A DNA stretch of 53,108 bases from a virus, in the IMG/VR virus record IMGVR_UViG_3300037076_000071, positions 1 to 53,108 of that record. One strand, 5' to 3'. This document shows positions 36,239 through 45,062 of the stretch, piece by piece. The notes under the pieces were generated by a model. That model saw nothing but the letters and a program-made list of their open reading frames with translations. It was not told the origin of the DNA and made no database searches. A program made the translations under genes and the position numbers. Every line of letters begins with the position of its first letter. Positions within the stretch are counted from its first letter, which is position 1.

Positions 36239-36754
36239 GTGGAACAACCAAAGTATCGCATACAACCCGTGAAGTGGAGAAAGAAGGCTGGTGGCGGCAA
36301 ACAACCATACCAAGGACACTTCTATCCTGGATATCCTGAAAAATATGAAGGAAAGATTGACACCATCATGTTTCGGTCTGGATTGGAGCTTCGTTTGTTC
36401 AAATATTTGGATGAAGCTCCTGGTATCATTCGATGGAGTTCTGAGGAAACAGTGATTAAATATCGGTCGCCGGTTGACGGAAAGATCCACCGATATTTTG
36501 TTGATGCCAAAATCACAACCAAAAAAGATGAAATTGAGACTACATATCTCATCGAAGTGAAACCGGCATCTCAATGCAAGCCGCCGTCGCCACCCAAAAA
36601 ACCGAATAAAAAATCTCAGGCAAGATTTCTTCGAGAATCGAGAACATACAAAGTCAATTTGGCAAAATGGAATCAGGCAGAACTGGTGTGCGAGCAAAAA
36701 GGATGGACATTTTTGAAATTGACCGAAAAAGATTTGTCATTTGGAAGAGTATGA
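36239..36754 (+). CDS. 4: Head-completion nuclease, gp4-like
   Basis: 171 residues, GTG start. FRSGLELRLFKYLDEAPGII, then RYFVDAKI and YLIEVKPASQ give the E...D...ExK nuclease-type motif (E50, D89, E106, K108) of T4 gp4 (gp50) family. In T4 it completes the filled head before tail joining. The C-terminal KKSQARFLRESRTYKVNLAK also fits. Stop overlaps the next ATG. Confidence 0.8.
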   Translation: MEQPKYRIQPVKWRKKAGGGKQPYQGHFYPGYPEKYEGKIDTIMFRSGLELRLFKYLDEAPGIIRWSSEETVIKYRSPVDGKIHRYFVDAKITTKKDEIETTYLIEVKPASQCKPPSPPKKPNKKSQARFLRESRTYKVNLAKWNQAELVCEQKGWTFLKLTEKDLSFGRV

Positions 36755-37053
36755 GACTGAAAGGGTGGAAGATGTCAGAGGAACAGAAACAAAAGATTCG
36801 TGCGACCATGATAGGTCGTACTTATTCGGAAGAGCGTCGGGCAGCGATGCGAAAACCACGCAAACCTCTTAGTGAAGCGCATAAACAGAAAATTAGCGAA
36901 TCAATGGAAAAATATCTGAACAGCCTAACAGAAGATGAATTCACAGAAAGAATGATGCGTACATGGACAGCAAATTTAGAATCGAACGCCGACTACGCTC
37001 CACTCGATCCTAAAATTATGGACAAAATGAACGTATTCCTTGGTCTCAAATAA
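36751..37053 (+). CDS. NUMOD3-only protein
   Basis: 100 residues from ATG 36751 (ATGA overlap). MSEEQKQKIRATMIGRTYSE and PLSEAHKQKISESMEKYL are two NUMOD3-like DNA-binding units, with no nuclease domain before them. The C-terminus is acidic. It may be a relic of a homing gene or a domesticated DNA-binding protein within the head-tail operon. Confidence 0.65.
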   Translation: MRLKGWKMSEEQKQKIRATMIGRTYSEERRAAMRKPRKPLSEAHKQKISESMEKYLNSLTEDEFTERMMRTWTANLESNADYAPLDPKIMDKMNVFLGLK

Positions 37054-38354
37054 TGCCAATACGAAACCTTGACGAGTCAGAGATCCGCAGAATTTCAGAG
37101 AAGTACATTCACAGTGTACGGCATGACCCGGAGACTATCCCAAACATTCAGGAAGTCATCACGGAAGCGATCAAGAATGTTGCACCAAACCGGGAGTTTG
37201 ATCCCGCCGACATCGCCAGTGTTGTGTCTAAGTTGAAAGGCAAACACATCATCAACGACAAAGTAATCAACGAAGCGGCCAAGGAAGTGGTTGACCATAG
37301 CGCAATGGAAGACATGAAGTTCATGATCGGGCGCAATGCCAAGGCGCTTGGAAAGACTAAACTCACTCCCAAAGAAGTTGACGCAATCATCAAGCAGGGT
37401 AAGCTAGACCCATATACAGCCTCGTTGCCACAGATCAAAAAAGCGGTCAATGATTTCTTCTCGTTTGGTAGACCATTAGAATTCATCACACCGACTGAAT
37501 TACAAGATATGGTCCGGTCGCAGATGAGCAAAGCCGGTCCTGTAGATGAACGTGATGTGAATGCTGTTGTGGCGAAGTATGTAGAGAAGGCCGATCAAGA
37601 GAAACCTGTCGATCCAGCCGAAGTACAGCGCCTCATTCAGAGTCACATGGCACTTCGGACGCCACCAACAAAGCCGTCAGAACAAGAAAAACAGAAAGGC
37701 GACAAGCAGACAAACGTCAAACAGGGAACGTTTATTCCGCCGAAAGATCCAAAAAATTTGACCTTCTTTGAGAAGATTAGAATCAAATTTCAACGGTATG
37801 GAATTAAGTCTCTCACCAAGGAATCTCGCAACTGGCTCACCGATGAAGTTGCCAGCCTGAAGCGTGTAAATCGCCAGAGTTTTATCACACAAGGTCAGAC
37901 AGCAGCGGAAGCCTTCATCGGCAAGATGTTCATGTTTTTTTACGACGCCAAGACGAAGAAGAGACTGCCGTATTGGGATAAGTTCCCACTCATCTTTGTG
38001 ATTGAGTTATATGACGACGGGTGGCTTGGTCTCAACCTTCACTACTTAGATCAGAAGGTACGCTTGCGCCTGTTTGACAAGTTACTCAAATTTGCGAATG
38101 ATAAATCATTAGACAAGATTACGAAGCTAAGATTGTCGTATGCGTTGCTGAAAAATGTAGCGCAATTTCCCGAAGTAAGACCTTGTATCAAAAGGTACTT
38201 AGCTGAATATACAAAGAGTCAACTCTTGACAGTTCAGCCGATTGATTGGGAAATTGCGTTGTTCTTGCCAGTCGAACAGTTCCAGAAAGAGAAGAAGGAA
38301 ACTGTATGGGCAGCAAGTAGAAAGAAGATTCGGAGTCTGAGGAAGGTAAAATAA
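37053..38354 (+). CDS. Probable virion/assembly protein, 433 aa
   Basis: The N-terminal half has recurring short helical repeats with a DPxxVxxI/LIxxx layout (LTPKEVDAIIKQGKLDPYTA, DPAEVQRLIQSHM). The middle is Lys/Gln rich, and the C-terminal 170 residues form a globular aromatic domain (FPLIFVIELYDDGWLGLNLH). Placement between the gp4-like and tube-like genes suggests tail assembly. No T4 equivalent recognised. Confidence 0.6.
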   Translation: MPIRNLDESEIRRISEKYIHSVRHDPETIPNIQEVITEAIKNVAPNREFDPADIASVVSKLKGKHIINDKVINEAAKEVVDHSAMEDMKFMIGRNAKALGKTKLTPKEVDAIIKQGKLDPYTASLPQIKKAVNDFFSFGRPLEFITPTELQDMVRSQMSKAGPVDERDVNAVVAKYVEKADQEKPVDPAEVQRLIQSHMALRTPPTKPSEQEKQKGDKQTNVKQGTFIPPKDPKNLTFFEKIRIKFQRYGIKSLTKESRNWLTDEVASLKRVNRQSFITQGQTAAEAFIGKMFMFFYDAKTKKRLPYWDKFPLIFVIELYDDGWLGLNLHYLDQKVRLRLFDKLLKFANDKSLDKITKLRLSYALLKNVAQFPEVRPCIKRYLAEYTKSQLLTVQPIDWEIALFLPVEQFQKEKKETVWAASRKKIRSLRKVK

Positions 38355-39307: not shown

Positions 39308-40129
39308 ATGCCATTACCTAATCTGGAAAAGATGGTGCCTCATTTTGAGATCACCGTCCCATCGACCGGGAAAGAAGTCACATTTAGACCTTTCCTTGTC
39401 AAAGAGGAAAAAATCCTTCTCATCGCTTTGGAGAGCGGCGAAGAGAAGGCCATGCTAGATGCAATCGTGCAAGTGATTACATCCTGCGCCGTCTCGCCGT
39501 TGAAAATCGACTCTCTTGCAAATTTCGACCTGGAATACCTTTTCCTACAACTTCGGGCACGCTCCGTCAATAACGTTGTCGAGCTTACTTACCGTTGTCA
39601 TAATCTTGTTATAGTCGCCCCTGACGAAGTTGAAAAACATAGTTGGGAATCTCGTGAACAAAAGGCTCAAGCCATTGAAAAGGTCAAGGCCGGTGAACCA
39701 GTATACGGATCATGCGACTACATGGTCAAAGTGAAACTCAATCTGGATGACGTGAAAGTTCAATTCAACGATCAGCACAAGCGGCAGATCTTTTTGACAC
39801 CGACTTTAGGCGTCAACATGCGCTATCCGAATTTCAAAATGGCGAAGGCTTTGCTTGGTAGACCTACGCAGCCGGATAGTGTGACCGATAGCATTCAAAG
39901 CATCGCTATGTGTGTGGAATCGGTGTTCGATGAAGAGTCGGTATATAACAACTTCACTCCGAAGGAAATTGTAGAGTGGGTCGAGAAATTGACACAGCCA
40001 CAGTTCGCCAGCTTGCAAGTCTTTTTTGAGACTATTCCGACGCTGGCACATGACTTTGAATTCCATTGCCCGGTATGTGATTACAAAGAGAACATTCACA
40101 TAGAAGGGCTACAAAGTTTTTTCGGCTAA
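39308..40129 (+). CDS. Baseplate hub/tail chaperone protein, gp26/gp51 family
   Basis: 273 residues. EITVPSTGKEVTFRPFLVKE then EKILLIALESGEEKAMLDAI and the zinc-like end FHCPVCDYKENIHIEGLQSF are the marks of the T4 gp26/gp51 family. In T4 these help build the hub. The position directly before a tape-measure-like gene is that of tail assembly chaperones. The last sense codons (AGT TTT TTC) form a -1 slippery site; see 40117-40317. Confidence 0.8.
   Translation: MPLPNLEKMVPHFEITVPSTGKEVTFRPFLVKEEKILLIALESGEEKAMLDAIVQVITSCAVSPLKIDSLANFDLEYLFLQLRARSVNNVVELTYRCHNLVIVAPDEVEKHSWESREQKAQAIEKVKAGEPVYGSCDYMVKVKLNLDDVKVQFNDQHKRQIFLTPTLGVNMRYPNFKMAKALLGRPTQPDSVTDSIQSIAMCVESVFDEESVYNNFTPKEIVEWVEKLTQPQFASLQVFFETIPTLAHDFEFHCPVCDYKENIHIEGLQSFFG
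40117..40123 (+). promoter_or_regulatory. Slippery heptamer T TTT TTC for -1 frameshifting
   Basis: Zero-frame codons are TTT TTC with T before them, so both tRNA-Phe can re-pair in the -1 frame. The zero-frame stop follows one codon later and the -1 frame is open to 40317. No clear downstream pseudoknot was identified by eye. Confidence 0.7.
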
Positions 40130-40155
40130 GTCTCAGTCATAGTTCTCTTCCCAAT

Positions 40156-40317
40156 ATGTTTCTGGTGAACTTCAGTCTTACTTTTCACCACAAATATACC
40201 TTGACTGAGATTGAGAGTATGATTCCTTGGGAGAGGGACGCATACCTCAAAATGATTTCCGAATACATCGAAGCCGAAAATGAGCGCATAGCCGCCGAAA
40301 ACGCCAAACGTAAGTAG
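40156..40317 (+). CDS. Small ORF joined to the gp26/gp51 gene by probable -1 frameshift
   Basis: From ATG 40156 there are 53 residues (MFLVNFSLTFHHKYTLTEIE, then SMIPWERDAYLKMISEY). No ribosome binding site precedes the ATG. The frame is open upstream without a stop, back through the end of the gp26/gp51-like gene at its T TTT TTC heptamer. The fused C-terminus would be about 65 residues. The hydrophobic/charged block (IPWERDAYL) is the type of C-terminal extension found in T-parts of tail chaperones. Confidence 0.7.
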   Translation: MFLVNFSLTFHHKYTLTEIESMIPWERDAYLKMISEYIEAENERIAAENAKRK

Positions 40318-40361: not shown

Positions 40362-40733
40362 ATGACTGCACAACAATTTAGCGATATCATGGCGTGGATG
40401 AAAGCCAACGAACTTATGTTGGGTCTTTTGGCATCGGCTATCGTCATCACCATGCCCGAAAAATTGCCGGGGCTACGAGAGTTTCCAGAATGGATGTGGG
40501 AATGGATTCGTGATGCAATGAAGACCTTTATGAACTTCAGACACTCAGGCGCACCTATCACAGATGCTCAACACAGTACTGCACAGGCTCTTGAAGTGCC
40601 AGGAACCGTGCAGATTAAAGTGGAACAGCCGATTACAAATCCACCGGAGAAATCTACACCAGAAAAACCAACAGAGAAACTTGAAGTAGACAAGAAGCCA
40701 ACAGACCCACAACCGCAACTCCTTAACGAGTAA
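40362..40733 (+). CDS. Membrane-anchored small protein, 123 aa
   Basis: Residues 17-32 (NELMLGLLASAIVITMPEK) are one membrane segment, followed by an amphipathic aromatic helix (LREFPEWMWEWIRDAMKTFM) and a Pro/Glu/Lys-rich disordered tail. The layout fits a holin or a membrane factor. Direct neighbour of the tape-measure gene, so DNA ejection is another option. Confidence 0.6.
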   Translation: MTAQQFSDIMAWMKANELMLGLLASAIVITMPEKLPGLREFPEWMWEWIRDAMKTFMNFRHSGAPITDAQHSTAQALEVPGTVQIKVEQPITNPPEKSTPEKPTEKLEVDKKPTDPQPQLLNE

Positions 40734-40739
40734 ACTTAG

Positions 40740-43700
40740 ATGCCTCTTGACCCGAAGAAGACAAAGAACGGAGTAAATCTCAACGAGATCGACGTAAGCA
40801 AACTCGCCTTGGTTGACAAGGAAGGTTTGATTGACGATCTTGGCAAGCGTCTGAAGACAGAGATCAAAGGTGCCTTTACTGAAGCTATCAAATCTGTAAA
40901 GCCAGAGATTAAAGGTATTGTCGATGACGCTGTAAAGTCTCAAAATTCTTCTTCGGGTGGATCACAAGCACCCTCTTCATCAACGAAGCAGCAAACAACT
41001 TCTAGCGGTGGTGGAGGAAATAGTGGCGGTGGTGGAACCCCGCCGCCCAACCCACCAAAACCGCCTAAGCCACCCAAGACACCGAAGCAACCCAAAGCTC
41101 CAAAGGTTCCAAAGCCACAAATGAATCCTGGTGGCGGCAACGTGTATTCTGACATAGGAAAGGAGATTGCCGAAAATCTTGACGAACTAACGGAAAGTTA
41201 CCAGACTCTCAATCTCAAAGAATTAGAACTAGCACAAAAGAGACTGTCCGACGTACAAGAGTCCATTCGATTTTCGACTTTTGGAAAAGAACAAGCTCTA
41301 CTTTCTGCTGCGACGGCAGATCTTGAAAAAGAACTAGCGAATGAAGCAAAGAAGCGTGGCACGACCCTCGGAAAGATTGGCAATTTCCTAGACCGGGAAA
41401 ATATCAACGCAGCCAGCATCATTACAGGCATCTTCAGCGATTCTCCGATGGTCGGTTTGATGACCAAGGCCGTGATGGAGTCAATTCGCCACAAGCGTGC
41501 TGCCGCCCAAAAGCAAAAATCCGATCAGTTGAAAATTGGAGACATCAAACAGCATCTTCCCCGCCCTGATGACTTCCACCAACAGAACCAGCAACAGACG
41601 GCACCACAGGCCCCACAGCAGCCTCAGACGCAGCAACAGGCTCCACAGCAGCCACCACAACAAGCAACGCAGCCAGCGCAGCCCCAAGCACAAAGTCCAA
41701 CTCCTGTTTCTCCACAAGAACAGCAACCAAATCCGAAAGGACCGGCGCAAGTCCACAACATTGGCGACTACGCAGATCGGCGTCCACCCGAGCGTGTCAA
41801 CGATGAGGAAGATGACGAAGAAGGAAAGAATGCAGAAATGGTTGCTCTTCGTCTCCACAAGCAAAGCAAGCGACGTGCCCGTGGAAACTATCAACGTGAG
41901 AAGTATGACCAAGGTTACGAGCAAGGAAAGAAAGCTGAACTAGAGAAACTACACGCCGAATTAGAGGAAGCAAAAAAGAAAGCAGAAGAGATTAAGAAGA
42001 ATCCACCAGAGCCAAAACCAGGAGAAGACATTTTTGGCACTCCAGACGACAACGCTGAGTCTGACGTTAGATTACTTGAGCACAAAGTTGCATCCATTCA
42101 AAAACTTCTTGACGACATAGAAAAGCAGAAGGCCGATGAAGCCGACGAAAATAAGCGTGCCCTTGAATACGCAAGTAAGGGCGAACGCAAGCAGAACAAT
42201 CTTGTCGAAATGAAGCCGAAGGCTCCAGAACGAGTTCAACAAGAACCCATTGTAATGGGCAAGGCGGCATTAGAGCATAACGCCGATCCAGAGACACAAC
42301 TCCATCCAGAAAGAGAAGAGTTGGGCGATAACAAAATTGTCAGCATTCTCAGTGGAATGAAAACGACTGAAGAGAAGGAAAGCAAGACTCTGGACGTTTT
42401 CAGTTTCAAGAACAAGAACAATCGCATCAATCCATTTCTCGAACTGCGTAAGCTAAGTCAACAGCAATTGACCGAGCTTGAAAAAATCAGTAGTATCATG
42501 GCGCTTCAGCTTGAACAGGCTAAGTTGGCAAATGATGCTGCCCAACGTGAGACCAAAGAAAAAGGTCTTGGTGGCGAAGGTGGCGGCGGTGGAATTGTCG
42601 AAGGCGCTGCAAAAAAGAAGACCAAGGAAAGCGGTGGTTTGGGAATCATGGATGCAATCTTCGGCGGTGTCGAAGGTCTGCATGGCGTTCAGTTACTCAC
42701 ACAAGGCATCAAAGGCATCAAAAACTTCGGAAAGAATCTTTTCAAGGGTAAGGGTGCGAAAGGTGCCGAGAAGGTAGCCGAAGGTGTCGGTGAAGGTGCA
42801 AAAGTTGCTGAAGGTGTCGGTGAAGGCGCAAAGGTTGCTGAAGGTGCTGGTAAAGGTGCAGAAGCCCTCAAAACTGTAGAAGGTGTAGGTAAGGGAGCCG
42901 AAGCGGTCAAAGAAGTCGGGTTCATGAGCAAGTTGTTGGGTAAGGTTCCTGGTGGTGAAAAGGCCCTTGAATTAGGTTCTAAAATTCCAGGAATGTCAAA
43001 GCTTGGTGGCGCTGCAAAAGGATTGGGCAAAGTTGCTCCCTGGTTGCAATTAGTATTATCCGGTTTGGACTTCCACCAAGGATACAAGCAAGCAGCGAGT
43101 TTTATTGGTAAAAAAGAAAGCGATGTTGATACTGGTGATAAAATTGGTTCCGGTGGAGCCAATGTTGTAGGCAATATCGTTGGTAGCCCTATTGATATGA
43201 TAGGGGCGCTCTTCGGCCAGGATTTGAATACCACTGGTTATATCAGAAAGAAACTGAATAATGCAGGACAAGCAATCAAAAATGTCGGAGAAGATGGTCC
43301 GGTTCAAGCAACACAGACGGAATCAGCTAAGAAGCTCCAAGACCGTATTAAAAAGTTGAAGGAACAAAATCCGGGTATGACCGATGCTGTTGCTAGAAGC
43401 AAAGCTATCGAGCAATTGCTTGCAGAAAAGGCACAGAGTTCATCACCAACGTCACCAACACCAGCGGCACCACAGCCCGCACCATCTACGTCGCCAACAC
43501 CAGCGGCACCACAGCCCGCACCATCTACGTCGCCAACACCAGCACCAACAACCCCGGCACCATCTACATCACCAGTCGGTGGATCGGTGAACACCACCAG
43601 TGCGGGCGTTCTTCAGTCAACCACATCTCCGTTTTCGACTAGTTTAACTAAGTCATCTACAGCAATGAATAAAGGTGCTCGTCTGGCTCCTAGTAGCGTC

Positions 43701-44528
43701 AAAGGTACAGCTAGTCAAACAACTGGAGAAGTGGCTGCTGCTGCGATGGAAGCGGAGAAGGAAACTGGATTTCCTGCAAAAGTAATCATGGCCCAATTTG
43801 CATTGGAAAGCAATCGTGGGAAAAGTGTCACTGGCGATTACAATTTTTTTGGAGTGACAGGAAGCGGAACTGCTGGAAGTAAGATGGTAAAGACCAGAGA
43901 AGAAATAACTCCTGAATATGCTGCGAAACATTTTCCTGATGCAGTTTTAGATTCAAATCAGTCGGGTGTTGCTCCCGGTAAAAAGCGATACATTGTGCAT
44001 CGTCCGTTTGCCGCATACAAGTCAGTGAAAGATTCTGTGGATCAACACATCAAACTTCTTTCACAAAGTAAACGATACAAACCCGCATTCGAGAAGTACA
44101 AAAAGACTAAGGACGCCGATCAGTTGATGCGTGATATTGCCGCTGCTGGTTACGCTACAGGGAATAATTACGGAGACCATTTGGTAAAGGTTTCTCAAAG
44201 CAGCGACTTGGTTTCTGCTTTATCTGGTGGGACGACACCAACACCAGCAAATGGTCAGACGCAACCACCTAAGACTGAATTGGCAAGTGCAGCGCCAGTA
44301 CAACAGCCACCGACTCCACCAGAAGCAGGAAAGCGGCTGACTCAAGCATCCATGCAGAACACGGATCTTGTAAGAACTGCATCAGCCGCACCACCGCCAG
44401 CAAATAGCCAGAATGTGTTTGCTCCATCTAACGTCACACAGAACACCAGTATTCTTCCAGGTGTGAAAGCGCAGAATACAGAAAGCACGTATCAGCGCAC
44501 GATGGACCAAATGTATGTGGCGACTTGA
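40740..44528 (+). CDS. Tape-measure-like protein with GH73 glucosaminidase domain
   Basis: 1262 residues. Layout: Gly/Pro linker near 75-130; a helical region; Gln/Pro-rich stretch near 280-335; coiled coil (390-460); a Gly-rich membrane-like/tape block (GGVEGLHGVQLLTQGIKGIK) with repeats VAEGVGEGAKVAEGVGEGAK; Ala/Pro/Ser tandem repeat near 905-940; then a GH73/FlgJ-type muramidase (about 990-1170) with AQFALESNRGK, catalytic Glu near 1022. The enzyme could open peptidoglycan during ejection. Position after the chaperone pair and length support a tape measure; a hub lysozyme (gp5-like) role is the alternative. Confidence 0.7.
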   Translation: MPLDPKKTKNGVNLNEIDVSKLALVDKEGLIDDLGKRLKTEIKGAFTEAIKSVKPEIKGIVDDAVKSQNSSSGGSQAPSSSTKQQTTSSGGGGNSGGGGTPPPNPPKPPKPPKTPKQPKAPKVPKPQMNPGGGNVYSDIGKEIAENLDELTESYQTLNLKELELAQKRLSDVQESIRFSTFGKEQALLSAATADLEKELANEAKKRGTTLGKIGNFLDRENINAASIITGIFSDSPMVGLMTKAVMESIRHKRAAAQKQKSDQLKIGDIKQHLPRPDDFHQQNQQQTAPQAPQQPQTQQQAPQQPPQQATQPAQPQAQSPTPVSPQEQQPNPKGPAQVHNIGDYADRRPPERVNDEEDDEEGKNAEMVALRLHKQSKRRARGNYQREKYDQGYEQGKKAELEKLHAELEEAKKKAEEIKKNPPEPKPGEDIFGTPDDNAESDVRLLEHKVASIQKLLDDIEKQKADEADENKRALEYASKGERKQNNLVEMKPKAPERVQQEPIVMGKAALEHNADPETQLHPEREELGDNKIVSILSGMKTTEEKESKTLDVFSFKNKNNRINPFLELRKLSQQQLTELEKISSIMALQLEQAKLANDAAQRETKEKGLGGEGGGGGIVEGAAKKKTKESGGLGIMDAIFGGVEGLHGVQLLTQGIKGIKNFGKNLFKGKGAKGAEKVAEGVGEGAKVAEGVGEGAKVAEGAGKGAEALKTVEGVGKGAEAVKEVGFMSKLLGKVPGGEKALELGSKIPGMSKLGGAAKGLGKVAPWLQLVLSGLDFHQGYKQAASFIGKKESDVDTGDKIGSGGANVVGNIVGSPIDMIGALFGQDLNTTGYIRKKLNNAGQAIKNVGEDGPVQATQTESAKKLQDRIKKLKEQNPGMTDAVARSKAIEQLLAEKAQSSSPTSPTPAAPQPAPSTSPTPAAPQPAPSTSPTPAPTTPAPSTSPVGGSVNTTSAGVLQSTTSPFSTSLTKSSTAMNKGARLAPSSVKGTASQTTGEVAAAAMEAEKETGFPAKVIMAQFALESNRGKSVTGDYNFFGVTGSGTAGSKMVKTREEITPEYAAKHFPDAVLDSNQSGVAPGKKRYIVHRPFAAYKSVKDSVDQHIKLLSQSKRYKPAFEKYKKTKDADQLMRDIAAAGYATGNNYGDHLVKVSQSSDLVSALSGGTTPTPANGQTQPPKTELASAAPVQQPPTPPEAGKRLTQASMQNTDLVRTASAAPPPANSQNVFAPSNVTQNTSILPGVKAQNTESTYQRTMDQMYVAT
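43455..43532 (+). repeat. 39-bp tandem repeat inside the tape-measure gene
   Basis: Two almost perfect copies of a 39-bp unit (13 residues, SPTPAAPQPAPST), followed by a degenerate third, make an elastic Pro/Ala/Thr linker before the GH73 domain. Confidence 0.8.
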
Positions 44529-44549: not shown

Positions 44550-45062
44550 ATGGAGTCCATATCTAAACAAAAAGCTACAGATAAGTACCGACTTTCTGAA
44601 AAAGGCAAAGAAACAAGAAAACGATACCGCCAATCACAAGCTGGAAAACAATCGTCTAAGAAAACTTATACTTCTCCGCAAGGAAAATTGTGGGTAAAAA
44701 AGGCTGGCGACCAGTATCGTCAGACTAATCATGGTCGTGCAGTTATTCTCTTATGTGATGCGAGAAAGAGAGCACGACAGCAAAACTTGCCATTTGCATT
44801 AACTGTCGAATGGATAGAAGAAAAATTGAAATTTGGCGTGTGTGAACAAACGGGTGACGCATTCAATTTAACTCTATTCAAAAATTCGCATCGAAATATG
44901 TTTGCCCCTAGTTTGGATCAAATTATTCCGGCTGGAGGATACACGCCGGAAAATACTCAAATTGTGTGTTGGTGGTGGAATTCATTCAAACACAACAGAA
45001 CAGATGAAGAGGCATGGCAACATTTCCAAATTCTCCACAATCGTCAATCGTTGTCGTCATAA
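44550..45062 (+). CDS. HNH endonuclease-like homing protein
   Basis: 170 residues. Basic N-terminal half; CEQTGDAFNL then FAPSLDQIIPAGGYTPENTQ, then WNSFKHNRTDEEAW match the short HNH type (SLD, GY, N, K) found in phage homing enzymes. It sits behind the tape-measure gene and overlaps the convergent gene by 19 bases. Confidence 0.7.
   Translation: MESISKQKATDKYRLSEKGKETRKRYRQSQAGKQSSKKTYTSPQGKLWVKKAGDQYRQTNHGRAVILLCDARKRARQQNLPFALTVEWIEEKLKFGVCEQTGDAFNLTLFKNSHRNMFAPSLDQIIPAGGYTPENTQIVCWWWNSFKHNRTDEEAWQHFQILHNRQSLSS

Follow-up and report, generated by a model that had tools for sequence, protein, structure and literature searches.

What does the gp26-family gene of this phage produce: a single protein, or the short and long forms of a tail assembly chaperone? 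The question arises from the last codons of the gene, and it bears on a wider statement in a 2016 recoding review, which calls G-T frameshifting conserved among phages with long tails and names T4 as the exception (PMC5009743). Our analysis of the window, by which we mean the whole 53,108-bp IMG/VR record, leads us to predict that the locus very probably encodes a tail assembly chaperone made in two forms via a programmed -1 frameshift.

Slip site, reading frames and neighbouring genes

The following features are used throughout:

39308-40129, + strand: gp26-family gene, 273 aa, putative short tail assembly chaperone form (TAC-N, gpG-like), matching PF12322 and phrog_150
40103-40108, + strand: GAAGGG, candidate Shine-Dalgarno (SD)-like stimulator 8 nt before the heptamer, suggested by family-wide enrichment
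40117-40123, + strand: slippery heptamer T TTT TTC, read directly, in X XXY YYZ phase (-1 slip phase)
40127-40129, + strand: zero-frame stop TAA, read directly
40123-40317, + strand: -1 frame extension, an open frame matching phrog_634 (E 2.9e-22) from the heptamer onwards
40156-40317, + strand: 53-aa ORF from the first ATG of the -1 frame, matching phrog_634 (E 2.1e-18)
40362-40733, + strand: 123-aa protein in the interval between chaperone and tape measure, listed for its position; a small gene lies in the same place in HTVC008M and phiM12
40740-44528, + strand: probable tape measure with glucosaminidase domain (PF01832, E 9.8e-22), its identity suggested by position

The 3' end of the gp26-family gene reads CTA CAA AGT TTT TTC GGC TAA (40109-40129), which places a single sense codon between the heptamer and the zero-frame stop, as the initial annotation had claimed. 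That annotation also described a -1 frame open for about 65 codons; the frame spans 40081 to the stop at 40317, with 66 codons counted from the heptamer on. Joined by a slip, 39308-40123 and 40123-40317 would yield a predicted long form of 336 aa (TAC-NC, gpGT-like) that includes the gp51 C-terminal domain, phrog_634 being the family of the T4 gp51 C-terminus. The small ORF, said to have no ribosome binding site of its own, is indeed free of SD-like sequence in the 20 nt upstream of its ATG at 40156. We screened all stop-to-stop ORFs of at least 100 aa for a slip-phase heptamer within the last 60 nt together with a -1 extension of at least 50 codons. Only the gp26-family gene passed among the 76 ORFs of the + strand, and three ORFs passed on the - strand, none of them with a T6 heptamer.

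The identity of the gene is given by its match to PF12322 (E 1.5e-56; score 191.9 bits, the curated cut-off being 24.5; profile positions 2-218 of 219) and to phrog_150, the T4 gp26 family (E 7e-61). The best relative found for the protein is 59% identical, which makes it a divergent new member. The record contains one PF12322 match, and as it is a fragment, a second copy could sit elsewhere. Pfam and PHROG profile searches returned no family match for the protein at 40362-40733. The next gene, 40740-44528, is probably the tape measure by position and synteny, since the corresponding gene is annotated as such in HTVC008M, RHph_I1_18 and phiM12; the position of the chaperone gene fits just upstream of this putative tape measure. 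In the latter, the glucosaminidase domain is C-terminal and is accompanied by a long proline-rich region. Other observations from the surroundings are a DNA end protector (gp2, phrog_429; 37053-38354) whose N-terminus is extended by about 240 aa that lack a strong match, and two small ORFs near the tail genes that resemble homing endonucleases, one with a weak NUMOD3 match (36667-37053) and one judged by eye (44550-45062).

A sequence search of solved structures gave no match. The AlphaFold2 model of the gp26-family protein has a pLDDT of 91, and its N-domain is structurally closest to 2ob9, the tail assembly chaperone of HK97 (Z 7.5), to 3fgx (7.5) and to YqbN (3klu, 7.2), followed by the next neighbour at Z 3.0. 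A Z near 7.5 by itself may reflect a common arrangement; it gains meaning because each of the three leading neighbours, 3fgx included, is a phage chaperone or resembles one, and we regard it as moderate, supportive evidence for a chaperone fold. YqbN has been grouped with HK97 gp13 (PMC9603447). The T domain had chance-level matches only in Pfam, and its model is helical with modest confidence (pLDDT 75). In a comparison with BFVD, the model of 39308-40126 also matched proteins that are unnamed or annotated as hub in distant phages (Campylobacter CP220, Bacillus SP-15, Pseudomonas PaBG, Ralstonia RSL1 and Leptospira LE4), which may conceal more frameshift chaperones.

Conservation, selection and rival explanations

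The first six relatives, drawn from several phage groups, all carry T TTT TT(C/T/G) with a single codon between it and the stop, together with an open -1 frame. In the larger collection (221 sequences), an in-phase heptamer together with an open -1 frame is present in 209 of the 217 family matches, and so the conservation at homologous loci on which the initial annotation had let its claim depend is borne out. Two further matches, L121 and L212, have retained both T run and -1 frame behind an upstream indel, which raises the count to 211 of 217; their apparent status as heptamer-less homologues was an artefact of that indel and was rejected. The remaining six are the gene 26 of four split-type phages and the loci of Vibrio 1.244.A and Cygsa01. 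All loci of the collection were gathered via protein similarity to a few single-protein queries and hence represent an uneven sample of the family; a scan for relatives with L094 found none. In all 80 cyanomyovirus loci TTTTTTC lies at an identical distance from the stop and is accompanied by a -1 peptide that is itself conserved (FFRIALFHNTLEGYYKTNFALMQHHKYSL type). The distance from the first base of the heptamer to the stop is usually 10 nt and in some loci 7, 13 or 31 nt, with the heptamer kept. In the Rhizobium phage RHph_I1_18 (L096, 2199-2378) the heptamer precedes the first base of the zero-frame stop by 34 nt, and the -1 frame is still open; several IMG/VR loci likewise combine a distance of 31 nt with an open -1 frame. 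Because the in-phase heptamer and the open -1 frame are conserved across the family, down to very distant relatives, the slip signal at the locus is real and beyond chance.

In order to assess codon choice and selection, we used 79 dereplicated heptamer-bearing representatives with less than 80% identity. The heptamer codons are xxT TTT TTN in every one of them; elsewhere in these genes third-position T is chosen in about 59% of cases for the same amino acid and TTT in about 64% of cases for Phe. By codon usage the chance of such uniformity is about 10^-39, a value that is conditional on the heptamer and ignores phylogeny. In the 16 codons after the stop, pN/pS is 0.17 in the -1 frame versus 1.41 and 1.75 in the other frames, and the -1 peptide evidently evolves under purifying selection family-wide. 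The -1 frame is thus open across the stop and under coding selection, as in a G/GT-type chaperone.

Possible stimulators were sought on both sides of the slip site. Upstream, an SD-like purine stretch occurs in 51 of the 79 representatives, compared with 16% at other positions, partly because the protein has a conserved glycine there. That glycine, 8 nt upstream of the heptamer, is encoded by GGG in 23 of 75 cases versus 38 of 631 elsewhere (p 2.6e-9), a bias that resembles the SD stimulator of dnaX. Downstream, RNA structure has a mean z of -1.6 over the representatives (mononucleotide shuffle), and in this phage nothing outstanding was found; we dropped it as a stimulator because z is +0.45 in the window.

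Could the small ORF instead be an independent gp51 gene, translated from the ATG at 40156 or, once gp26 has terminated, by reinitiation, with an incidental heptamer? Such a gene is annotated in many phages, the cyanophages included, and stop-start overlaps (TGATG or TAATG) in some relatives would suit reinitiation. The ATG at 40156, however, has no SD sequence ahead of it, 59 of the 79 representatives have no ATG within the initial 18 codons of this frame, and purifying selection already acts on the peptide upstream of any ATG. Moreover, the heptamer is kept beyond amino-acid need, and in T4 gp51 the N-domain is covalently attached. We consequently consider an independent gene very improbable, and the 53-aa ORF, annotatable as gp51 though it is, is probably not a separate gene. 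Slippage of the RNA polymerase on the T run, rather than of the ribosome, is a further conceivable source of the extra product, given that the site is a six-T run and that some relatives have eight T. The run is nevertheless strictly phased as xxT TTT TTN and often just six long, and the upstream SD-like codon bias is sensible only for translation, which makes this explanation even less probable than an independent gene. The programmed -1 ribosomal frameshift thus remains our preferred reading.

Relatives without the heptamer

The view that T4-type phages lack the frameshift, repeated in the initial annotation, is right for T4 itself, which has two PF12322 genes, and very probably wrong for its heptamer-bearing relatives. 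T4 genes 26 and 51 lie on opposite strands, both match PF12322 and align with each other; judged from their sequences, they are paralogues. When a profile built from four T4-type gp51 proteins is compared with the predicted fusions, the alignment extends over 242 columns and passes through the junction (E 3.1e-25); the gp26 alignment stops at the slip site, unlike that of gp51, which covers the fusion at near full length. In T4, gp51 is accordingly the counterpart of the long form and gp26 that of the short form. Among 22 complete records, all 16 of the frameshift type have one PF12322 gene, as do 1.244.A and Cygsa01, and all four of the split type (T4, phiAS4, phiP4-3 and RB43) have two; in the split-type phages gene 26 has no in-phase heptamer leading into a T domain. 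RB43 (L100, 2501-3794) carries both genes on one strand, gene 51 immediately preceding gene 26 and sharing 8 nt with it, and in T4 the two are divergent. The two genes are likely to stem from one duplication in the T4 lineage, which is not proven because the tree, with its long branches, does not resolve in what order gene 26 and gene 51 branched off. The distinction between one frameshifted gene and two paralogues explains why cyanophage gp51 was described in 2010 as missing its first ~200 residues and Aeh1 as having no gp51 (PMC3037559). T4 gp51 is required for assembly and absent from the particle, and the literature is contradictory as to the presence of gp26 in the hub (PMC3004832).

Another group, the Ackermannviridae and relatives, has lost the heptamer. 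It comprises Kuttervirus, Taipeivirus, Miltonvirus, Aglimvirinae, Campanilevirus, Vibrio 1.244.A/D528 and Cygsa01, and the heptamer is gone in phiDP23.1, SeSz-1, Magnus, 3M and YC (all Ackermannviridae) as well as in Vibrio 1.244.A, D528 and Cygsa01. The 3' end consists of NTT TTC or TTT, one codon and the stop, with GCT TTC in YC, and the -1 frame still crosses the stop and encodes the T domain. The Kuttervirus and Taipeivirus junction, for instance, is GAG ATT TTC ATT TAA. Four Ackermannviridae loci (L222, 2295-2456; L223, 2280-2465; L224, 2289-2465; L225, 2226-2429) have the -1 T domain across the gp26 stop with U UUC only. In several members the T domain is unannotated; SeSz-1, Magnus and 3M have no annotated gp51, and an ATG is absent near the junction. 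Homologues without the heptamer, which the initial annotation had taken to speak against a frameshift, do therefore exist among the Ackermannviridae and relatives, and the claim for the present phage stands because their -1 frame stays open and conserved.

The 13 codons after the stop in four heptamer-less members show a pS of 0.42 versus a pN of 0.08 in the -1 frame, calculated from few sites. For phiDP23.1 and YC, the open stretch of the -1 frame starts just 10 nt ahead of the stop, so that any slip is confined to about U UUY. phiW-14 and Bakedbeans, in or near the Ackermannviridae arm, have retained the heptamer. Our interpretation, as yet unproven, is that tandem slippage was lost in the Ackermannviridae and relatives, leaving single-tRNA slippage or reinitiation. 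We put at even chances that the group makes the same fusion on a single NNU UUY, with one tRNA-Phe slipping from UUY to UUU. If true, slippage by a single tRNA would have replaced tandem slippage inside one family of chaperones, the two genes of T4 being a third solution. Our literature searches returned no paper on the heptamer-less Ackermannviridae variant, and it is possibly the newer part of our results.

Proposed mechanism and related systems

For the present phage we infer the slip event, its rate, the stimulator and the binding partners. Most ribosomes would stop at TAA (40127-40129) and release the 273-aa short form, and a minority would slip one base back on T TTT TTC and produce the 336-aa form with the gp51 C-terminal domain, probably aided by the SD-like GAAGGG, a candidate stimulator, upstream. 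By analogy with gpG/gpGT of lambda, many short copies would coat the tape measure encoded just downstream, few long copies would recruit tail tube subunits, and both forms would leave before the virion is completed. The initial annotation had proposed both the frameshifted short and long forms and the G/GT role; conservation, selection, the T4 split and the fold uphold this reading, with details amended as described above. Altogether, the conserved signal, the selection on the -1 frame, the alignment of gp51 with the fusion and the HK97-like N-domain make gp26/gp51 a well-supported G/GT-type tail assembly chaperone. For a very common marine phage gene pair, this corrects the annotation: cyanophage 'gp51' would be the tail end of gp26 and no truncated gene.

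The abstract of the Vladimirov 2022 study reportedly states that frameshifting is conserved in several T4-like groups and that T4 uses genes 26 and 51. That study reportedly identified the tail assembly chaperone genes of T4-like phages (Vladimirov, Gautam & Davidson 2022, Virology 566:9-15), and the PRFect summary of it describes a short gene and a long fusion gene in some T4-like phages. As cited in PMC12846349 and PMC10885494, T4-like chaperones have poly-T -1 frameshift signals in some groups, and in others the short and the long form have a gene each. The core finding was already identified for T4-like phages in 2022, so the value of the present work lies in larger-scale confirmation, the selection test, the SD-like stimulator signal and the Ackermannviridae exception.

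The T4-like TAC-N/TAC-NC chaperones belong to the same gp26/gp51 family as those of the present phage, which is a new and divergent member; T4 itself uses two separate genes on opposite strands without heptamer, whereas the present phage has the heptamer and the -1 frame. One chaperone family would thus have two routes to its two forms, frameshifting in most T4-type groups and paralogues in T4. The gpG/gpGT system of lambda has another slip site, G GGA AAG, and the tape measure that follows the present locus is assigned by synteny. Chaperones of the Vandenendeviridae and Andersonviridae, which are other phage families, have a conserved -1 frameshift before the tape measure on a T-rich GTTTTT (PMC12846349).
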